From Paracyclopina nana (taxonomy: Eukaryota; Arthropoda; Copepoda; Cyclopoida; Cyclopettidae): 64,000 nucleotides of DNA. The notes beneath the pieces were generated by a model. The model did not search any database, was not told where the DNA came from, and saw nothing but the letters and a program-made list of their open reading frames with translations. Of the stretch, positions 32,876-58,165 are shown piece after piece; positions within the stretch are counted from its first letter, which is position 1, and the number at the start of each line of letters is the position of its first letter. Location of the stretch: contig JAGUCH010000001.1 of assembly GCA_019096065.1 (NCBI GenBank), positions 12,152,001 to 12,216,000 of the forward strand, in the 5' to 3' direction. A program made the position numbers and the translations under genes.

Positions 32876-34360
32876 ATGGGTCCCCTCCGACGGCTGCCGA
32901 TCGACTCCACCCATCTCCTCGGCGGCCACGCCCTCTCCACGCCCAACCACTCCGCCCCATTCCGCCTCCTGCGGATCGTGCGAAGCCTGGCCCCCAACGC
33001 GGGGACGGCCGTCACCGCCACCGTCACCACCAGCCCCATCATGCTCCGCACCCTCAACATGCCGGGCCAAGAAGTCTTTCGATCCATGCAAGTTCACACC
33101 TCGTCCAAGACGCCCTACTCGGACGCCACCCAGGTAAGCCCGGCTTTGTTAAATGACCCTCTCGGGTCCGTCCCCCGGGCCCACGGGCCCCACGGCTCCG
33201 CGCCTCTCCGCCCAAACTGAGCACTGACGTGAGCTCTCGCTCCGACCGCGTAGAGTCTCGGCAGCTGAACAGCTGTTCTCACAGCTGATCGCTTTCCCTG
33301 TTACTAAGCTGATATGCTTGCCTTTCAGACGAAGAAGCACAAGCTGAACCACATCAAGAGGCCGATGAACGCCTTCATGGTCTGGTCGCAGCTCGAGCGG
33401 CGCAAGATCATCGAGGTCACGCCCGACAAGCACAACGCCGAGATCTCAAAGGAACTGGGCCGGAGATGGAAGCTCCTGCCCGAGGAGGCCCGCCAGCCCT
33501 ACATCGAGGAGGCGGAGAGGCTGCGCATCCTGCACCAGAAGGAGTACCCCGACTACAAGTACAAGCCGCGCAAGAAGCCCAAGCCCTCTAGCCCGACAAT
33601 GACGACGAGTCCGACGACGACCACTACCGCCGCGCTTTCCACTTCACCCACGTCAGCCAACAACGCCATGAGGGGCATCAGCGACAAGTCGCGAGGCCTC
33701 TTCAAAGCCAGCAGCCTCGAGGTGGCCAGCATCACGTCGGGCGGCCCCAAGATCTTGTCGGCGCTCGACAACAAGCTGAAGCTGAAACTCACCATCGACC
33801 GCAAGTTCAAGGAGGCCGTGGTGAACAAGCAGCCCCCCGCGGCCGCCTCCAGCATTTCCTTGGACAGCTCCTTCTACATGGATTGCAGCGAGGACGATGC
33901 GCCGCCCAAGAAGCTTTTGTCACTGGCGGCCGAGGCCAAGTTGGCCGAGGAGCCTCCACCTCGGCCGGCTCAGCAGCAGCAACAGCCTCCGCCTGTGATG
34001 CCCAAGACTGAGATGATGGTCGACAACAACAACAGCATTGTGAACAACACGATGGTGCCTCAACCCAAAACATGCTCGTCGCTGGTGAAGAACGTGACCG
34101 TCTCGGCAGCGGCCAACCCCAGCAGCGTGATCAAGACTGAGCCGAGCGGCCTCGACTTTGAGGGACTCACGGAGCTCTTTATTGCCGGTGATCAGATCAA
34201 CTTGGACGCTTTAGACACGCTCGACACGTGGGAGTCGGGCAGCAGCTCCTCGGGCTCCCACTTCGAGTTCGCCTGCACCCAGGACGAAGTGTCTGACATG
34301 CTCTCCGACATCGCGGTGGCCGGCGAGACAGACTGGGTGGACAATCTCATCGCGATTTAA
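32876..34360 (+). CDS. SoxC: SoxC-family HMG-box transcription factor
   Basis: This is a two-exon gene, coding 32876-33133 and 33329-34360, predicted at 429 aa. It is a nuclear DNA-binding regulator; by family knowledge SoxC (vertebrate Sox4/11/12, fly Sox14) controls neuronal and tissue differentiation. The HMG box spans about residues 95-169 and starts [13 protein letters not shown], the Sox signature that binds the minor groove and bends DNA. The box is followed by a basic KYKPRKKPK stretch. The middle is low complexity (Ser/Thr, a Gln-Pro run). The last ~32 residues ([16 protein letters not shown]... to WVDNLI) match the conserved SoxC C-terminal activation tail. The intron is phase 0, and exon 1 ends TPYSDATQ, joining directly to [12 protein letters not shown]. 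The first ATG is chosen because the 55 codons before the alternative ATG at 33041 are almost all G/C-ending like the rest of the gene, and a stop lies just upstream at 32852. Starting at 33041 (374 aa) remains possible and has the better start context. Confidence 0.93.
33134..33328 (+). other. SoxC intron
   Basis: This is a 195-bp GT-AG intron. The donor is CAG|GTAAGC at 33133/33134 and the acceptor is CCTTTCAG|ACG ending at 33328. Splicing is phase 0 and places TPYSDATQ directly before [12 protein letters not shown], the expected run into a Sox HMG box. This confirms that the ATG at 33314, just before the box, lies in the intron and is not the start. Confidence 0.88.
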
Positions 34361-51118: not shown

Positions 51119-51122
51119 ACTT
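51119..51122. repeat. Left target-site duplication (ACTT) of the LTR element
   Basis: ACTT precedes the TG of the 5' LTR and is repeated as ACTT at 57513-57516 directly after the CA of the 3' LTR. A 4-bp duplication fits LTR-element integration and argues that everything between entered as one unit. On its own a 4-bp match has a 1 in 256 chance. Confidence 0.75.
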
Positions 51123-51387
51123 TGTGTAGGACTTTCTACGCTCGAGGCCGAGGCTGAGGCCGGAACGGAGGCCAAGACGAGACGTCTAGACGAGAGGCCA
51201 CGATGGAGGCCGCAACGGAGGCCGCACCCGAAAGTCTAGCTATAAAACCTCTCTACACTCACACACTCACGCTCACTCTTTCGTACACGCTTATTGGACC
51301 ACCTTGGAACGCAAATAAACATCTCACTATTTCAACTAGCCTTCCCTTTTCGTAGCGGTAAGACGAACCTGAAAAAGTCTCTATACA
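51123..51387 (+). repeat. 5' LTR
   Basis: The LTR is 265 bp, begins TGTGTAGG and ends CTATACA. A GGAGGCC-rich U3 segment is followed by a TATA box (TATAAAA, 51241-51247), a CACTCACAC tract, a poly(A) signal (AATAAA, 51314-51319) and a strong splice-donor-like site CG|GTAAGA at 51357/51358 in U5. The TATA-to-AATAAA spacing implies a short R region of about 60-70 nt. It reads the same as the copy at 57248-57512. Confidence 0.92.
51241..51247 (+). promoter_or_regulatory. TATA box of the 5' LTR
   Basis: TATAAAA stands about 70 bp upstream of the LTR poly(A) signal, as expected for an LTR promoter. Transcription would start near 51270. Confidence 0.75.
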
Positions 51388-51550
51388 AAACTGGCGATCC
51401 GGACTATTCCGCTAAGAGATCGCTAGTTTGAGATACAGACTTTTTTGCATGAATAATTGTACGCAAGAATACAATAATTAGAGGAAATTTTAATAATGAT
51501 TGGAGTAAACGAGATAGAAAGGCAACCTTTGAGAAATGAGGATGTAGCAG
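51358..51550 (+). other. Possible leader intron starting in U5
   Basis: CG|GTAAGA at 51358 is a near-consensus donor inside the LTR. A matching acceptor may be GTAGCAG|AAATCC ending at 51550. The exon that follows opens a clean reading frame, while the leader exon contains no ATG after the presumed start site. Such a spliced subgenomic message is known from retroviruses. Here it is only a sequence-based proposal. Confidence 0.4.
51392..51409 (+). other. Primer-binding-site-like tract
   Basis: Four bases after the 5' LTR the sequence reads TGGCGATCCGGACTATTC. PBS sequences begin TGG because they pair with the CCA end of a tRNA, and TGGCG is frequent in insect LTR elements primed by tRNAs ending CGCCA. 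I cannot assign the tRNA by eye, so this is a positional and partial sequence match. Confidence 0.5.
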
Positions 51551-51617
51551 AAATCCATCATGTTCGAACGCCATCGAGGCATTCGTCAAGGCACTCGTCA
51601 CGAGCTTTTTGGTAGAC

Positions 51618-53091
51618 ATGTACCACTATGCCATGGATGACATGGAGGAGGACTCTTTGGTGCCAGTGCACAATTCGCTCGCTTGTGCGATTTCGGTTGC
51701 ACTTCGGCTACCAACGGCTACAGTAGAAGAAAAGGTAATCGCCAAACGGCAGTTAAAGGCCCACTAGAGCTTAACAAATTTAAGGGATATAGAGAACGTT
51801 GTATAAGAGCCTTACACTTGGCGTCTGCATGCAGAATCTTTCTTGATGAGGCAAAAAACTAATTAATCCTCAGGCTTACAACGCAGATTTGCCTGAGATA
51901 AATGTAATTTCAGCTTTTAACGCAAAATATTTTAGCAAAAATATCCAATTAAACCTATCAGTAGAATCTTCTGATGTAAAACTGGAAAACGAGCCAATAT
52001 GCGAAATAAGGGCTCAAAGAAGAAAGAAAAAAGCCTCGAGAATATATGGGATCTCGTCTCTCTACATGTTAGTGTGTATAGCAGCCAGCTCTGCAGTTTT
52101 CGCTGAAAGCCAACTTCAAGGAAACAAGGCCGCCAGGGAAAGAGAGCAAAATCCTTCTTGGCAAAAAATGGAGCTCCACTCGAGGCTGGAACGAGACATG
52201 AGAAAGCCCGAAAGCAATTTCCTCTTCGCAGTCTCCAGCTCAAAGGAGAAAGGCCATTATGTGAGGCCCACACGCAATCTTGAAGCCCATAAGACGCCTC
52301 TGCCTCAAGGCCGAGAGGGCTTACTCGCAATCTCGACAAAGGAAGCCTTTTTCGCAATGCAGCATTTTCAGCAAAATGAGCAAAAAGGCCACCTTTCCTC
52401 TCCTCGGTCAAAAAGTATAAATAATCTTGATGAAAAATTGCGAATGAATGAGGTGCTTAAAAATAGAGCAAGAAGCAGTGAAACTCATGTAAAAATAAAT
52501 ATAATTGCATGCCTTCTAGTAATAAGGGTAATATACATAGTATGTAAGATAATGATATTATTAAAGGCCAAATATATGTGTGCACAAGGAGAAAAAATAA
52601 ACAGGAAAATATTTGAGAGCCTCCGCGGATCGAGGCGGATATTTCGGATTTTTGAGAATAAAAAAGTACGTTTTCCACGGAGGAAAAACAAAAAACTGTG
52701 TTTTACGATTTTGCGGAAACAAAATAAGGTTAAAAAGAGTACTTGCATAAAAAAAATGCTGACGACAAATAAACAAAAGGAGAAATTTCGAATCCAAATG
52801 ATGAAATCAAAACTCAAACAGGTGAAAAAGAGCATCAACATTGCAGAAGCAGGAATAATTGATTCTGATTTTCGTGGCCAAGTCATGCTTTTTTTGCGCA
52901 AAATAGGTATTGAATTGAAATACAAGAGAGGAGACTCTTTGGCTCAACTTATGATCATCCCAAACTACATGGGTCGAGTCGAAAATTGTGAAAACTTACC
53001 TAAAGAAGAAGAACAGCATACCCACGAGGGCTTTGGTTCCACTGGGAACTGCCCAAATGTAGACTTTACTTTCGAGGAAAATCAGAACTAG
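51618..53091 (+). CDS. Sense-strand ORF with C-terminal partial dUTPase-like domain (spliced model)
   Basis: The model joins 51618-51734 and 51874-53091 (444 aa) through a 139-bp intron. The donor is AAAG|GTAATC, the acceptor is TCCTCAG|GCT, and splicing is phase 0. The second exon is open without the first from 51850. The last ~90 residues carry trimeric dUTPase motifs. These are motif 3 AGIIDSDFRG (52849-52878) with the catalytic Asp, motif 4 KRGDSLAQL (from 52924) and the Gly-rich motif 5 EGFGSTG (53026-53046). A weak motif 2 (RIQMMKSKL) is just upstream. Motif 1 (AGYDLY-type) is not found and the middle is Lys-rich and AT-rich, so the enzyme fold looks incomplete or diverged. Two hydrophobic stretches (about 52050-52110 and 52500-52560) are of unknown role. 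AATAAA follows at 53205. By family knowledge dUTPase hydrolyses dUTP to dUMP and limits uracil in newly made DNA; some retroviruses and Ty3/Gypsy elements encode it. Activity here is doubtful. Confidence 0.6.
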
Positions 53092-53204
53092 ATAATATGT
53101 GCATGCTTATAAAGTAATAATACCGTAAAAACAAAGTTGACTTGGTATCATTTCACTTAAAAAATGGCCATTATTCTTAAGAGAAACGAACCGACTTCAC
53201 TTTA

Positions 53205-53210
53205 AATAAA
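53205..53210 (+). terminator. Poly(A) signal of the sense dUTPase-like gene
   Basis: AATAAA stands 114 nt after the stop codon, overlapping a second near-copy (AATAAAATAAA). If used, it would end a sense transcript long before the 3' LTR. That is odd for a retroelement genome and fits a gene-like unit. Confidence 0.5.
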
Positions 53211-53380
53211 ATAAAAATCTCATCTTTCCAACCACTTCAGCTTTGCATGAAAAAATAGCAAATAAACCTTGCAATTAAAAATAAACAACTAGCAGAAAAA
53301 TTGGCAAAAACAAACGCACACAAAATAACTTTAGTTGGAAACAAAAATGATACCAAACAGAATTTCATTAAAAACCTAGA

Positions 53381-53386
53381 TTTATT
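53381..53386 (-). terminator. Poly(A) signal of the antisense coiled-coil gene
   Basis: On the minus strand AATAAA lies about 26 nt after the TAA stop of the gene that ends at 53412. It faces the sense-strand poly(A) signal at 53205, so the two transcription units converge in a ~170-bp gap. Confidence 0.7.
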
Positions 53387-53411
53387 GCAGCATAATCTGA
53401 TTCAACTATGC

Positions 53412-54683
53412 TTATGAGTTTTCAGTTACGTTGACATCTTGATGAATGATATTTTCACCACCATGATTCACGAGTCTTTGGGTGCAGACATACATGGAGA
53501 ACGCACACCACACCAAAACCAGGGCAACCAGGATGGAAATGACAAGTAGAGGCAAAAAAATAAGCAAGCAAGTATTAGGGTTCCCAGCGCAAAATCTTGA
53601 CCAACTTATGTTCATCAAAGTAGAATCACCAAGTAGTAAATTGAGACCAGTCAGCTCACTTTTGCACGATGCAAGTGAGATTTTGGATTCGTTGAAACAT
53701 AGAGAAAGCTGATTCTTCAAAATTGAATTTTCCAGAAAAAGTGAGGCCTTTTCAGCAACCAGAACGGATATATCAGCAGCAAATTCGCCATTTTTGTGCA
53801 CAACATCTTGGCAAAATTCATCCAATTTGACATTCGATTTAATGGCCTTTTCCAATTCAACAGTGCAATTAAAAACGTCCATTTGGCAGTTATCCAGGAT
53901 ATGGCTTTGATTTCTTGAATCAGCTTGAAATTGGTCCAGGAAATGAGACAAACTACCATTCAATTTTTCCACATCAGAAATGCAAACTCTAAAGCGATCT
54001 TCGGCATGGTCCAATTTCGCGTCACAGGCAACCAAATCTTCACGCAAATTCGAGGTTTCCAAGGATTGGCCAGCAAATGACAATTTCAGCTCGTCGAAAG
54101 AATCCTGGCATGAGCGCAAATTTTCGTCAGTAAATGCAGCAGCAGCAGCTCGTTCGTCTCTGGCAATTTGGCAATGAACAAAATCCTCTTGGCATTTTTC
54201 GTACATGCCAGAGATTTTCGAGAAATTGGCTCTCAAATCCGTTTCACTCTGAGCAGAAAGACGAAATTCACTTTTCAAAAGGCTTTCCGATTCGCTCAAC
54301 TTTCTAAAATCGATTCGCAAATCTCCAAGTTTTTCCAAGCAGGCTGAATTCTCAAAACGCAATTCTTCAACTTTCGTATTCAAAAACGCTTTGCCCATTC
54401 GAACCAATTCCAATTCTTTCAACAAATCTGCAAAATGCCAAGTTGCTCAATGTTCCAACTTTTCGACAAATGTAAACAAAAACAAACCTTCGTTGGTGCA
54501 ATTGCAGAAACACGCAACCTCATCTGCGACGGCAAAAGCCGACTCGCACTTTCCAAGCGAGGCTCGCACGTCTTTCAAATTCGTCTCGCACTCTTGCAAA
54601 TCAATTGCCAACATAACATGTGGATTAATTGCAAAAACACTTTCAGTAAATGCAAAAATGCAAAAAAGCTCCAACAAATGCAT
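53412..54683 (-). CDS. Antisense gene C: secreted-type coiled-coil glycoprotein with C-terminal membrane anchor
   Basis: Two exons (54683-54488 and 54427-53412) give 403 aa. The N-terminus MHLLELFCIFAFTESVFA is a plausible signal peptide. The long central region is heptad-like and charged, with about a dozen Cys spaced through it and several N-glycosylation sequons (NCT, NGS, NQS, NES, NIS). A single strongly hydrophobic segment near residues 345-370 (LLIFLPLLVISILVALVLVW) is followed by a short ~30-residue tail. The topology is therefore type I: a large extracellular stalk, one anchor, a short cytoplasmic end. This resembles the general plan of a surface or envelope-type glycoprotein, but I recognise no family. 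The start is the first Met after a possible acceptor (CCATTAG) and is supported by the signal peptide. A canonical AATAAA follows the stop. Confidence 0.78.
54428..54487 (-). other. 60-bp intron in antisense gene C
   Basis: On the minus strand GAAG|GTTTGTTT opens the intron and CATTTTGCAG|ATTTG closes it, restoring one frame across both exons (...CTNE-D-LLKELELV...). Its GT-AG direction proves the gene is transcribed antisense to the LTRs. An intron this small matches the 55-bp intron ahead of antisense gene A. Confidence 0.82.
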
Positions 54684-55286
54684 GTTGACTAATGGAACAA
54701 AGTTGGCTTACTAAAGCACTGATAGCAAATCAGCAACTTAGCAATGCGAGTCATTCATCTGTAGCAATTATCAAAGTTGCCAATTTGTCGACAAAAGCAT
54801 TCAGCTTTTTTTCTTTCCTCGAGACCTTAAAAATTTTCTAAATGACTCATTTCATGAAATTGTCCATAGTATAATCAAAGATTATACACCAGAGTTTCAT
54901 ATCATCTGTGTTGCCCGATGGGCAGGGAAAAAAAAAGCCAGCGTTTTCGTTGTTAGAGTAAAAGAGGTGCATGTCAGACATGGGAACATATCTGACTTCA
55001 AAACTCATGGCACAAAAGAGCAAAGGCCTATGAGTGAGCCCATCTGCGACCATGACAATTTCCTTATCTTAGGAACCATGATTATAGTCTAGATAAATTA
55101 TTTGAGGTACTGCAGAAAAGAAATCCCGCGCACAATTAGCGAAAGCAGAAACGAGCGCGAAAAGCGAAAATGCCTAGTCACAAAAATGCGCGACGGAGAA
55201 AAGAGCTGCAGGGCTGACACGAGTTGCTCGTAACGTGAAAAAATTGGCCTTTAACAAAATGCCCCATGAAAAAAAAAAAAAAACAT
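54684..55286 (-). other. Spacer between antisense genes B and C
   Basis: About 600 bp. It includes a possible 68-codon minus-strand ORF (54847-55053). A run of 15 A on plus (T on minus) at 55269-55283 falls directly after the poly(A) signal of gene B. Nothing else is recognised, and a promoter for gene C may lie here. Confidence 0.5.
54847..55053 (-). CDS. Possible small antisense ORF D (68 aa)
   Basis: An ATG-initiated frame begins MVADGLTHRPLLFCAMSF and ends NFMK, with an in-frame stop shortly upstream, so the start is fixed if the gene is real. It lies between genes B and C on the same strand, and its composition reads like coding sequence (mixed hydrophobic and polar, few rare residues). 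There is no AATAAA soon after its stop, and no family is recognised. It could instead be part of the 5' leader of gene C. Confidence 0.35.
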   Translation of the reverse strand: MVADGLTHRPLLFCAMSFEVRYVPMSDMHLFYSNNENAGFFFPCPSGNTDDMKLWCIIFDYTMDNFMK

Positions 55287-55292
55287 TTATTT
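55287..55292 (-). terminator. Poly(A) signal of antisense gene B
   Basis: On the minus strand the sequence after the TAA stop reads GGCAAAATAAATG. AATAAA is therefore within 12 nt of the stop, followed by a long T run. Confidence 0.7.
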
Positions 55293-55296
55293 TGCC

Positions 55297-55806
55297 TTAA
55301 ATTTGACCAGTTGGAGACAAATGATCAATAATTTGATCCACCAATGCATGGCCTTGATTGCCGCGAGTACCATTTGATGACGAAAAGGGGTTGTTTGCAC
55401 CTACACCAACGTTAACATCAGCAGCAACAGCAGCACCTTCACTTCCAGTAGCACCAATGTTTCCGGGTTCAACAGGCAAAGTAGTTGGCAAAACAGCTCT
55501 CCTTGTGCAATTGCAGCATACTTTACTAAGCAGCCAAGCAAAAGAGAAAAATATGCCATATAATGGCCACATCCATATAATGGCACCATAGCAAAGGCTT
55601 TTCAGCACCAATTGAGCACAGGTTGAGCCACGAGAAAAGTCACCATGGGCAACAATAAAGGCAATTATCAAGCCAAAAAGAGCCACAGCCAGAACGACGA
55701 GAGTTCCCAGAAAAATATTCTCCTTCAAAACATTGCTGCTTTCTTGGCCAACGAGGTCATCCAGCTTTTGGTTGATCTCAAGGAGATCAAGTGATCCTCC
55801 ATGCAT
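55297..55806 (-). CDS. Antisense gene B: small two-pass membrane protein
   Basis: The protein is 169 aa from the ATG at 55806, which sits immediately after a splice acceptor (TTGTTTTCAG|ATG). A polar N-terminus (~30 residues) is followed by one hydrophobic segment at about 32-56 (ending LFGLIIAFIVAHG) and a second at about 67-96 (CYGAIIWMWPLYGIFFSFAW), then a CCNC cysteine cluster and a Gly/Ala/Val-rich tail with GNQGHALVDQIIDHL near the end. Both ends are probably on the same side of the membrane. No family is recognised. Its AATAAA nearly overlaps its stop. The frame could be extended seven codons upstream, but that would read through the acceptor, so I prefer this start. Confidence 0.72.
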   Translation of the reverse strand: MHGGSLDLLEINQKLDDLVGQESSNVLKENIFLGTLVVLAVALFGLIIAFIVAHGDFSRGSTCAQLVLKSLCYGAIIWMWPLYGIFFSFAWLLSKVCCNCTRRAVLPTTLPVEPGNIGATGSEGAAVAADVNVGVGANNPFSSSNGTRGNQGHALVDQIIDHLSPTGQI

Positions 55807-55846
55807 CTGAAAACAAAGAAACAAAATGAATTGAAAGAGCTTTATT
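55807..55846 (-). promoter_or_regulatory. Operon-like junction: poly(A) signal then splice acceptor abutting an ATG
   Basis: On the minus strand the AATAAA of gene A (55846-55841) is followed only ~31 nt later by a pyrimidine-rich acceptor ending CAG at 55807, and the next base is the A of the gene B start codon. No cis donor is obvious. Such spacing is typical of polycistronic units split by spliced-leader trans-splicing, known in nematodes, flatworms, tunicates and some crustaceans. An unseen cis leader exon is the alternative. Confidence 0.55.
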
Positions 55847-55874
55847 CACAAAGCAGGCAAACACTTTTTTAAGC

Positions 55875-56411
55875 CTAAACAAATTCAAAATGCTCCAAAA
55901 ACAATCGAAAAATAAGCCTAAAAAAGCCCTCATCCGGATCTGCCATAAGGCCAAAATAAATAAGCACACTTTCAAAGTATCCAGGTCTCCCATGGGACCT
56001 CAAAGCCAAGTACAAAGTCCAAATCATAAGGGCAAAAATGCACTTTTCATAGCCACGTTTTATGCAAGCAAAAATCACAAAAGCGCCACAATAAATCAGG
56101 CCCCAAAGGGACACAAAAAAGAAATGAATTGCGTATTCAATGGCCAAGCCAAGTACTTTAATTTTGAGGTAATCAGCAGTAGAAGGATGGGGTGGGAGCG
56201 AACGTAGCCAATAGCATTTTAAGCAGTACAAAAACAGCGCAATTGCAAGGAAAAACATAGCAATTTTTGGCCCAAACGACCCCATAATGGCCTCCAACGT
56301 AAGTAACAGCAGCAGAAACAGACGAAGAAAATCCTCGGAGAAAGGGCAAGAGCCATAAACCCGCACAAAGGCCTGCACAACATCAGATGTATCAAAGGAA
56401 AATTTGTCCAT
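55875..56411 (-). CDS. Antisense gene A: multi-pass membrane protein
   Basis: The protein is 178 aa, starting MDKFSFDTSDVVQAFVRV. Four hydrophobic stretches can be seen: around residues 27-42 (LRLFLLLLLTLEAIM), 45-66 (MFFLAIALFLYCLKCYW), 82-114 (a long one including FFFVSLWGLIYCGAFVIF) and 120-135 (CIFALMIWTLYLAL). This makes it a probable four-pass membrane protein. The C-terminus is short and polar-aromatic (FLEHFEFV). I recognise no family. The start is supported because the spliced leader has an in-frame TAA two codons before the ATG. It heads the antisense cassette, and its poly(A) signal falls just before gene B. Confidence 0.72.
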   Translation of the reverse strand: MDKFSFDTSDVVQAFVRVYGSCPFSEDFLRLFLLLLLTLEAIMGSFGPKIAMFFLAIALFLYCLKCYWLRSLPPHPSTADYLKIKVLGLAIEYAIHFFFVSLWGLIYCGAFVIFACIKRGYEKCIFALMIWTLYLALRSHGRPGYFESVLIYFGLMADPDEGFFRLIFRLFLEHFEFV

Positions 56412-56413
56412 AC

Positions 56414-56468
56414 CTAAAAAGACAACCGTGATCATTCATTTTTATCAATTAATCTTGTTCAAATTTAC
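56414..56468 (-). other. 55-bp 5' UTR intron of antisense gene A
   Basis: On the minus strand ACACG|GTAAATTT is a good donor and GTCTTTTTAG|GTATGG a good acceptor. Removing it leaves the gene A ATG two bases into the exon, behind an in-frame stop in the leader. An AG acceptor this close to a start codon could also receive a trans-spliced leader. Confidence 0.55.
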
Positions 56469-56469
56469 C

Positions 56470-57233
56470 GTGTTATGCTTGAGTTGCAGATGCAGAAAAA
56501 CTTCGTTGCGCCTAGGTTGGCCTCACTTTTCGCCCTCGTCGTCGTCCTCGGCCGTCGCGTTCAACCACACCATGAGCCCTTGAACGCACGCTCCCTTCAA
56601 ACCTCGTCAACGTTTCCGATGGGCAGCCTCCACTGCAAACGCGTTCACCGCGGCCGAATTGCGCAGCAGCTGCGCCGGGTTTCACCCTCGTCGTCGTCCT
56701 CGGCCTTCGCGTTCACTGTCGAACACTCGCAGCGCCGGTTTTCACCCGAAAATCGCCCAAAGCGAAGCTGGTCCACGGCCTTCACGTCCACCGACGAAAA
56801 ACTCGCAGCGCCAAAATGCCGACACCTGACGCACGAGATGATAGGAAAACGGGAAATCAACCAGACAGCAGACTTACCAGCACCAACAGCCTCGACACAG
56901 CCTCGGAACAACCTCAAAACGGCCGACAATGGAGTGGAAACTCAAAACCGGAGCAACGAAAAACTTTTCACGTCGTTACGCACGAACGGGAAAAACGGAA
57001 TGAGCGAATCTCAGCGCGAGGGATGATGATCAGAGTTACCAGAAGAAGACGAAAAGAAAAAGCCAAAAACGAACGAAAATAGCCCAAAAGACGAAGGGGG
57101 GTGGGATTGGCATTGGAGCCTCGTGGTCAACACCCAAACCAAATCCTGGAGCCTCGCGATCAACACCCAAACCAAATCCGGAAGCTTTTGTAGATACGCT
57201 TTTGGTCACACCAAAAATCGTCGTTCACCCTGT
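56470..57233. promoter_or_regulatory. GC-rich repeat-bearing region upstream of the antisense cassette
   Basis: This is the stretch before antisense gene A and inside the 3' LTR. It contains a 34-bp sequence starting TCGCCCTCGTCGTCGTCCTC at 56530-56563, repeated with two differences at 56682-56715. It also contains two tandem 33-bp units (GGAGCCTCG...CACCCAAACCAAATCC) at about 57117-57180. A 183-codon plus-strand frame here looks like a composition artefact. The antisense promoter and leader probably lie here, but no core element is recognised. Confidence 0.45.
57117..57180. repeat. Two-copy 33-bp tandem repeat
   Basis: GGAGCCTCG, then GTC or ATC, then AACACCCAAACCAAATCC occurs twice in direct tandem, differing at only a few positions, in the non-coding end of the element about 70 bp before the 3' LTR. 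Confidence 0.7.
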
Positions 57234-57247
57234 GGGCGGGGAGGATT
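57234..57247 (+). other. Polypurine-like tract before the 3' LTR
   Basis: GGGCGGGGAGGATT directly abuts the 3' LTR. A purine-rich tract here primes plus-strand DNA synthesis in LTR elements. One C and the terminal TT make it imperfect, but the position is exact and it fixes the element's plus orientation. Confidence 0.6.
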
Positions 57248-57512
57248 TGTGTAGGACTTTCTACGCTCGAGGCCGAGGCTGAGGCCGGAACGGAGGCCAA
57301 GACGAGACGTCTAGACGAGAGGCCACGATGGAGGCCGCAACGGAGGCCGCACCCGAAAGTCTAGCTATAAAACCTCTCTACACTCACACACTCACGCTCA
57401 CTCTTTCGTACACGCTTATTGGACCACCTTGGAACGCAAATAAACATCTCACTATTTCAACTAGCCTTCCCTTTTCGTAGCGGTAAGACGAACCTGAAAA
57501 AGTCTCTATACA
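57248..57512 (+). repeat. 3' LTR
   Basis: A 265-bp copy of the 5' LTR with no difference that I can find by reading, TGTGTAGG to CTATACA. TATAAAA is at 57366-57372 and AATAAA at 57439-57444. The latter would end full-length element transcripts. Confidence 0.92.
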
Positions 57513-57516
57513 ACTT
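57513..57516. repeat. Right target-site duplication (ACTT)
   Basis: ACTT follows the 3' LTR, matching the ACTT at 51119-51122 that precedes the 5' LTR. Confidence 0.75.
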
Positions 57517-58050: not shown

Positions 58051-58165
58051 TGTCAGAAGTGGGATTCGAACCCACGCCCACATTCGTGGACCAGAAAGCT
58101 CACTTCAGAGAAGCGAAGAGTCTATCTCTTGAGTCTGGCGCCTTAGACCGCTCGGCCATCCTGAC
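58051..58165 (-). tRNA. tRNA-Leu(CAA): tRNA-Leu(CAA) with a 31-nt intron
   Basis: On the minus strand the gene starts GTCAGGATGGCCGAGCGG (A box) and ends TTCGAATCCCACTTCTGACA (B box, acceptor stem, discriminator A). The anticodon stem CCAGA/TCTGG encloses CTCAAG..T with anticodon CAA. The intron follows the base 3' of the anticodon, the canonical place (exons 58165-58128 and 58096-58051). The long variable arm (GTCCACGAATGTGGGC) is typical of leucine. CCA is not encoded, as normal for eukaryotes. It reads as an intact gene, since all stems pair. Confidence 0.96.

Follow-up and report, generated by a model that had tools for sequence, protein, structure and literature searches.

In this work, we analyzed a 64,000-nucleotide stretch of the genome of the copepod Paracyclopina nana (contig JAGUCH010000001.1, positions 12,152,001 to 12,216,000; hereafter the window, to which all coordinates refer) and found one insertion bounded by long terminal repeats (LTRs) at 51123-57512 (~6.4 kb), based on a repeat search and sequence reading. 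An initial annotation of the same stretch had proposed a single LTR element with matching ACTT flanks and an antisense gene cargo, and its LTR coordinates proved exact to the base: identical 265-bp LTRs, ACTT flanks, a primer-binding site (PBS), and a polypurine-like tract together define one insertion. The interior contains one sense open reading frame (ORF), D, and two putative antisense genes, A and CB. These features are arranged as follows:

51119-51122, unstranded: left target-site duplication ACTT, from the sequence
51123-51387, + strand: 5′ LTR, 265 bp, TG..CA, identical to 57248-57512
51371-51446, + strand: hairpin of the LTR end (U5), PBS, and leader, from folding, with an inverted repeat there in the repeat search
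51392-51402, + strand: PBS TGGCGATCCGG, complementary to tRNA-Arg(ACG) plus CCA with one G:U pair
51850-53091, + strand: sense ORF D, 413 open codons, with dUTPase motifs 3-5 only, C-terminal
53381-53386, - strand: AATAAA downstream of gene A, from the sequence
53412-54427, - strand: gene A exon 2, with a probable coiled coil and a C-terminal membrane stretch
54428-54487, - strand: predicted intron of gene A, 60 nt, GTTTGT..GCAG
54488-54683, - strand: gene A exon 1, with a signal-like N-terminus
55286-55291, - strand: AATAAA directly past the stop codon of gene CB, from the sequence
55297-55806, - strand: gene CB exon 2 (or separate ORF B), from ORF reading and the frame join
55807-55880, - strand: predicted intron of gene CB, 74 nt, joining ORFs C and B in frame
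55881-56411, - strand: gene CB exon 1 (or separate ORF C), ATG at 56411, from ORF reading and the frame join
56414-56468, - strand: predicted intron in the 5′ untranslated region (UTR) of gene CB, GTAAAT..TTTTTAG
56469-57247, - strand: possible antisense promoter and 5′ leader, rich in G+C and CpG
57238-57247, + strand: polypurine-like tract GGGGAGGATT before the 3′ LTR, from the sequence
57248-57512, + strand: 3′ LTR, identical to the 5′ LTR
57513-57516, unstranded: right target-site duplication ACTT, from the sequence

The repeat search returned a single pair of 268 nt and 100% identity (51121-51388 and 57246-57513), which was trimmed to the TG..CA ends and the duplicated ACTT to set the LTR limits. 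The two LTRs agree at 265 of 265 positions and have ACTT outside both of them, as is general for LTR retrotransposons. Each begins with TGTGTAGG, ends with TATACA, and contains TATAAAA followed by AATAAA in the correct order (51241-51247 and 51314-51319 in the 5′ LTR). An origin from two solo LTRs was ruled out, because ACTT occurs exclusively outside the pair and the inner flanks (AAAC 3′ of the 5′ LTR and GATT 5′ of the 3′ LTR) both differ from it. From LTR identity and the duplicated target, one round of reverse transcription can be deduced. The absence of differences over 265 bp also sets a bound on age, with an upper 95% limit of divergence of about 1.1% by the rule of three.

The region next to the 5′ LTR has the properties expected of a priming site. 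The sequence TGGCGATCCGGAC begins 4 nt past the 5′ LTR, and three tRNA-Arg(ACG) genes recognized by ARAGORN share the 3′ end CCTGGATCG preceding the added CCA. When paired by hand, the 3′ end of this tRNA matches the PBS over 11 nt, with one G:U pair. The tRNA pattern occurs 11 times in the genome compared with 15 times for the reversed control, hence without excess; five of these 11 loci were given to ARAGORN, and three of the five are tRNA-Arg(ACG). Folding of the LTR end, PBS, and leader gave a single hairpin at -32.1 kcal/mol, compared with -15.6 (standard deviation 2.9) for shuffled sequences (z = -5.66), a stability that none of 200 shuffles equaled. The inverted repeat at the PBS prompted us to consider self-priming of the Tf1 type, but the match to tRNA-Arg makes tRNA priming likelier; the hairpin itself stands. 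Thus both a PBS and a polypurine-like tract are present, though the PBS is short and TT sits between the purines and the 3′ LTR.

For the interior, Pfam detected no gag, reverse transcriptase (RT), RNase H, or integrase domain among 25 frames, which include 22 of the 23 interior frames of at least 60 aa (the 62-aa frame at 55401-55589 was left out). This result supports the remark of the initial annotation that no gag or pol is visible in the element, as expected of a non-autonomous element. The sole family above its cut-off was dUTPase (PF00692, E = 6e-7), and matches below the cut-off, such as Filament (0.03), Pox_A14 (0.048), and dsRBD2 (0.018), include no retroelement domain. The stop-to-stop frames reach 413, 344, 202, 186, 182, and 174 codons. 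These lengths exceed chance, because in 300 dinucleotide shuffles the longest frame had at most 230 codons and the fourth longest at most 135. The 413-codon frame is the sense ORF D, the 344-codon frame is antisense A, and those of 186 and 182 codons are antisense C and B. By its length, the 202-codon frame is the sense frame that crosses the CB leader, where T is scarce; Pfam gave no match for the 183-aa ORF in it, which was not called a gene.

The first in-frame ATG of D (52066) opens a hydrophobic signal-like stretch, one of two segments found by hydropathy. Its dUTPase match covers profile positions 61-129 of 129, and matches in the Protein Data Bank (PDB) cover the identical part, which we take to hold motifs 3-5 in the usual numbering. 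D does not have all five motifs of a functional dUTPase; because only the C-terminal half is present, it is probably not an enzyme. Given the hydrophobic start, the half dUTPase (52066-53091) may sit on a membrane protein. NCBIfam and PHROGs also identified D as dUTPase, with nothing above the cut-off for the other ORFs, and the protein search gave one weak match to a dUTPase-domain protein (E = 0.056). The arrangement described earlier is present, with antisense ORFs of membrane-protein character opposite the dUTPase-like sense ORF, but the dUTPase domain is only a C-terminal half. The genome carries dUTPase at two places, namely, a host gene (L063) and this element; a recent origin of D from the host gene was rejected, as the two are 35% identical over 68 residues.

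On the antisense strand, removal of a 74-nt GT-AG intron would fuse ORF C (55875-56435) to ORF B (55297-55824) in a continuous frame. Two genes, A and CB, are hence a simpler model than the "at least three" that the initial annotation had counted; the membrane-protein-like nature of the antisense ORFs and their AATAAA signals were borne out. Spliced A is predicted to have 403 aa with a signal peptide-like start, a probable coiled coil, and a C-terminal membrane stretch, and its hydropathy profile has peaks at the start and in two adjoining C-terminal segments. Spliced CB is predicted to have 346 aa with about five membrane segments by hydropathy. The coiled-coil and signal-peptide labels rest on hydropathy, a weak SMC match, and the helices of a poor structure model (made without alignment; mean pLDDT 45.6 for A exon 2 and 44.9 for D). 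The SMC match of A (NCBIfam SMC_prok_B, E = 6.9e-5) scores 20.8 bits against a cut-off of 567 and most likely reflects the coiled coil only. Codon position 1 is enriched in G in A exon 2 and B, and less so in C. No match to A or CB was found in PDB, and a scan of virus contigs with D and A exon 2 gave no relative.

The splicing of the two coding introns, with donors GTTTGT and GTTTAG, was deduced from the reading frame. A strict splice-site scan of the antisense strand placed none of its four GTRAG donors or three acceptors at these introns; one strict acceptor, at 56414, fits the 5′-UTR intron of CB. The donor scan of a host locus covered GTRAG alone and is an unfair comparison for the donors of the element. 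The region upstream of the CB start (56412-57247) has a G+C fraction of 0.525 and an observed/expected CpG ratio of 1.32, compared with 0.77 and 0.80 in the two flanks, and contains a donor-like CTG|GTAAGT at 56877 (-). Direct repeats are also found in this G+C-rich leader, one pair at 56528-56563 and 56680-56715 (36 nt, 94%) and one 33-nt tandem at 57114-57179 (94%).

The element differs from its surroundings in base composition. The AT skew of the + strand, which corresponds to the genomic RNA, is +0.20 in the interior and +0.01 and 0.00 in the flanks. In 1-kb windows, the mean is +0.199 in the element (n = 22, range 0.079 to 0.309) and +0.020 outside (n = 223); 29 of the outside windows reach the element minimum and two reach its mean. 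At third codon positions, the skew is -0.22 in A exon 2, -0.52 in C, and -0.39 in B (T-rich), compared with +0.20 in D (A-rich). Because the antisense third positions are T-rich and the sense ones are A-rich, the bias follows the RNA strand rather than gene direction, a pattern consistent with a long stay inside a retroelement.

The host genome (91,952,342 bases in 10 contigs) was searched for other copies with methods that skip very common words. The 265-bp LTR had two matches, both of them its own copies, and the 5.86-kb interior matched only itself. In protein searches of the genome, D and B each had one match, namely, themselves. In addition to itself, A exon 2 had a weak match (E = 0.083, L039), as did C (E = 0.023, L041); the latter lies in a frame with two stops, at a locus with a nuclear-receptor-like exon that is presumably E75-like. 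A fresh transduction of host genes was rejected, since no source gene was found and the interior was found nowhere else by DNA or protein search (protein searches with D, A exon 2, C, and B; limit E = 0.1). The travelling cassette envisaged by the initial annotation is not demonstrated here, as LTR and interior match nothing but themselves in the 92-Mb genome. What that annotation had named as counting against it, namely, that the antisense genes never travel with the LTR elsewhere, holds inside this genome as far as word-skipping searches can see.

Genome pattern searches with the PBS of the element and with a full PBS for tRNA-Arg(ACG) revealed no partner element; the 18-base pattern of the former includes CCA, which is absent from nuclear tRNA genes, and so tests for relatives of the element and not for tRNAs. 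One PBS-like match (L035) sits in a gene, which we take to be a UDP-glucose epimerase gene, and a second lies elsewhere in the genome (L036). The LTR-end pattern with three mismatches gave three non-self matches compared with one for the reversed control, and none of the three has convincing further LTR similarity. A BLAST comparison of the element with 53 non-self loci, most of them RT slices without LTR, gave a 20-nt match only. The RT family RVT_1 is present in the genome, with 150 of 658 candidates scored and all 150 above the cut-off; 30 of these loci were taken at ~3.5 kb and five at 7-7.5 kb, with LTR limits set for one locus. This locus (L046) has LTRs of 231 bp that are identical to each other and a PBS of another sequence (TGGTGGCAGCC), and it lies inside a second direct repeat (169 bp, 85%). 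Three RT-bearing elements (L042, L043, and L044) carry an extra ORF downstream of pol; it starts with a hydrophobic stretch and, as judged by eye, may be envelope-like.

Taken together, we consider it probable that the insertion is a single, recent, non-autonomous LTR retrotransposon that depends on a helper and carries antisense accessory genes. RNA polymerase II would initiate in the 5′ LTR, and the sense RNA would fold the U5-PBS hairpin, with tRNA-Arg(ACG) as its primer. Another LTR family of the host would supply Gag, RT, and integrase in trans, and RT genes that could serve this purpose exist in the same genome. The cargo would consist of the sense ORF D, which ends in half of a dUTPase, and of A and CB, two antisense genes of long standing that are probably expressed from their own promoter near the 3′ LTR with their own poly(A) signals. 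These genes may encode membrane proteins with a role in movement of the element between cells or in regulation. Because they are antisense, their introns would not be spliced from the genomic RNA; the earlier argument that reverse transcription leaves such introns intact follows soundly from what is established, but these particular introns are predictions.

Several observations weigh against this interpretation. The element was found in a single copy, so recurrent mobility is unproven and the mobile-cassette claim rests on one insertion. Genome searches, with common words skipped, found no partner with a related LTR, LTR end, or PBS. A search of 5.8 billion proteins, in which the best candidates by shared words were scored (7,993 for spliced A and 7,998 for spliced CB), gave no match at E = 0.1; the splice sites of both genes are weak, and their introns are predictions. 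D lacks the half of dUTPase that holds motifs 1 and 2. Controls for the strand bias are few: five other LTR elements have an overall skew of +0.06 to +0.19, with -0.12 to +0.18 at third positions of the longest frame. Among 13 host frames, a small control set picked by length and mostly unchecked as genes, 10 fall within -0.11 to +0.08, with the Sox gene at -0.18 and two others at -0.37 and -0.52.

The leading alternative, although unlikely, is horizontal transfer or introgression from a species that houses the autonomous partner and sister copies, which is compatible with a helper-dependent element. It would explain why the element occurs once, its LTRs are identical, and neither relatives nor a partner turned up in the genome, but A and CB matched nothing. 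That the PBS matches a tRNA-Arg of the host itself speaks neither for nor against this origin. A more specific version of the helper-dependent reading, which we consider improbable, is a satellite retroelement that uses the Gag-Pol of a helper and contributes its own intron-bearing antisense membrane genes, through which it would gain a means of entry or cell-to-cell transfer missing from the helper. Lying antisense, these genes would keep their introns and be expressed separately from the genomic RNA.

Ranked just behind these is the doubtful possibility that an ordinary gag-pol element inserted here and had its interior replaced in place later, in which case A and CB would be host orphan genes and the element never moved in its present form. 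That LTR and interior are single-copy, with an LTR end common to no partner, agrees with such a history. However, the PBS, hairpin, and polypurine-like tract adjoin identical LTRs, no other copy of A or CB was found in the genome, the strand bias is unbroken through both gene directions, and a ~6-kb swap within such a young LTR pair seems unlikely. Least of all, and very improbably, the insertion is a defective LTR-element copy in which D is a decayed sense remnant and the antisense ORFs are chance openings: stop codons are fewer in a strand rich in A and poor in T, only half of the dUTPase domain is present, and A and CB have weak splice sites and no supporting homologue, but no shuffle exceeded 230 codons, compared with the 413 and 344 observed, codon position 1 is G-enriched as described above, and the features of A follow in order from a signal-like start through a helix-rich body and a membrane stretch to AATAAA.

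If the antisense genes of this element are expressed and the family exists elsewhere, the result would be an animal LTR element composed of cargo without an engine. It would also be a clear case of intron-bearing genes passing through reverse transcription, and the role of antisense membrane proteins in retroelement transmission would become testable. If the single copy is everything, the element is a curiosity.

Features of this element are found separately in several known systems. Large retrotransposon derivatives (LARDs) are large non-autonomous elements that have LTRs, PBS, and polypurine tract but no enzymes, as here; they are non-coding and multicopy, whereas this element has long ORFs and one copy. 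The HBZ gene of human T-cell leukemia virus (HTLV) is spliced and encodes a regulatory nuclear protein. Like it, the putative genes A and CB are antisense inside an LTR element, but HBZ belongs to a full retrovirus, and here two membrane-protein-like genes occur without gag-pol-env. Retroviral antisense genes such as HBZ have an antisense promoter in the 3′ LTR (PMC10186651).

The plant elements Retand, Grande, RIRE2, and PvRetro13 have antisense ORFs, mostly of unknown origin, between pol and the 3′ LTR, and these reports also describe an own promoter for gene23 of Grande, non-autonomous copies of Retand, SMC domains in PvRetro13 and 11 Retand antisense ORFs, and Retand clusters of 1 to 180 copies (PMC7264820, PMC11963269). 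With its antisense ORFs before the 3′ LTR, the present element may work like Retand and Grande, but membership is not established. The weak SMC-type match of A parallels the SMC domains of PvRetro13 and Retand, although in A it most likely reflects coiled coil alone. Typical members have gag-pol, none of which was detected here, and their named antisense domains are DNA-associated (TRP28, SMC, and others), unlike the membrane-protein-like A and CB. The Retand-type combination of antisense TRP28 and gypsy-type pol was not found, with no Pfam family above the cut-off in A, C, or B and no pol; the word "intron" is absent from the main text of PMC7264820 and PMC11963269.

In bdelloid rotifers, one report describes extra ORFs with membrane features and a dUTPase domain in Juno, Vesta, TelKA, and the non-autonomous TelKA2n, notes that dUTPase is rare in retrotransposons, and includes one env-bearing family without the gag end and most of pol (PMC5408684). 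The main families differ from our element in having gag-pol and a dUTPase between the protease and RT (PMC5408684), and "antisense" is used once in PMC5408684, for small RNAs. The MDG1 group, including Drosophila 412, likewise consists of LTR elements with their own membrane protein, sORF2, a small protein that aids capsid passage between cells; it has 63-107 aa, is forward in all candidates reported, and occurs in gag-pol elements (PMC11952523). The initial annotation had called the layout unusual. The structure is indeed unusual, but antisense ORFs in LTR elements are already known from plants and retroviruses. In the literature searched, from which most subscription papers were absent, no animal LTR element consisting solely of a dUTPase half and antisense genes for membrane proteins was found.

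Two other genes were observed in the window. A single-ORF HMG-box gene lies in a G+C-rich stretch at 33314-34360 (HMG_box, E = 4e-24) and is presumably SoxC-like. A 115-nt tRNA gene lies ~540 bp from the 3′ LTR at 58051-58165 (-); it was found by Rfam but not by ARAGORN in the bacterial setting and, based on its length, probably bears an intron.

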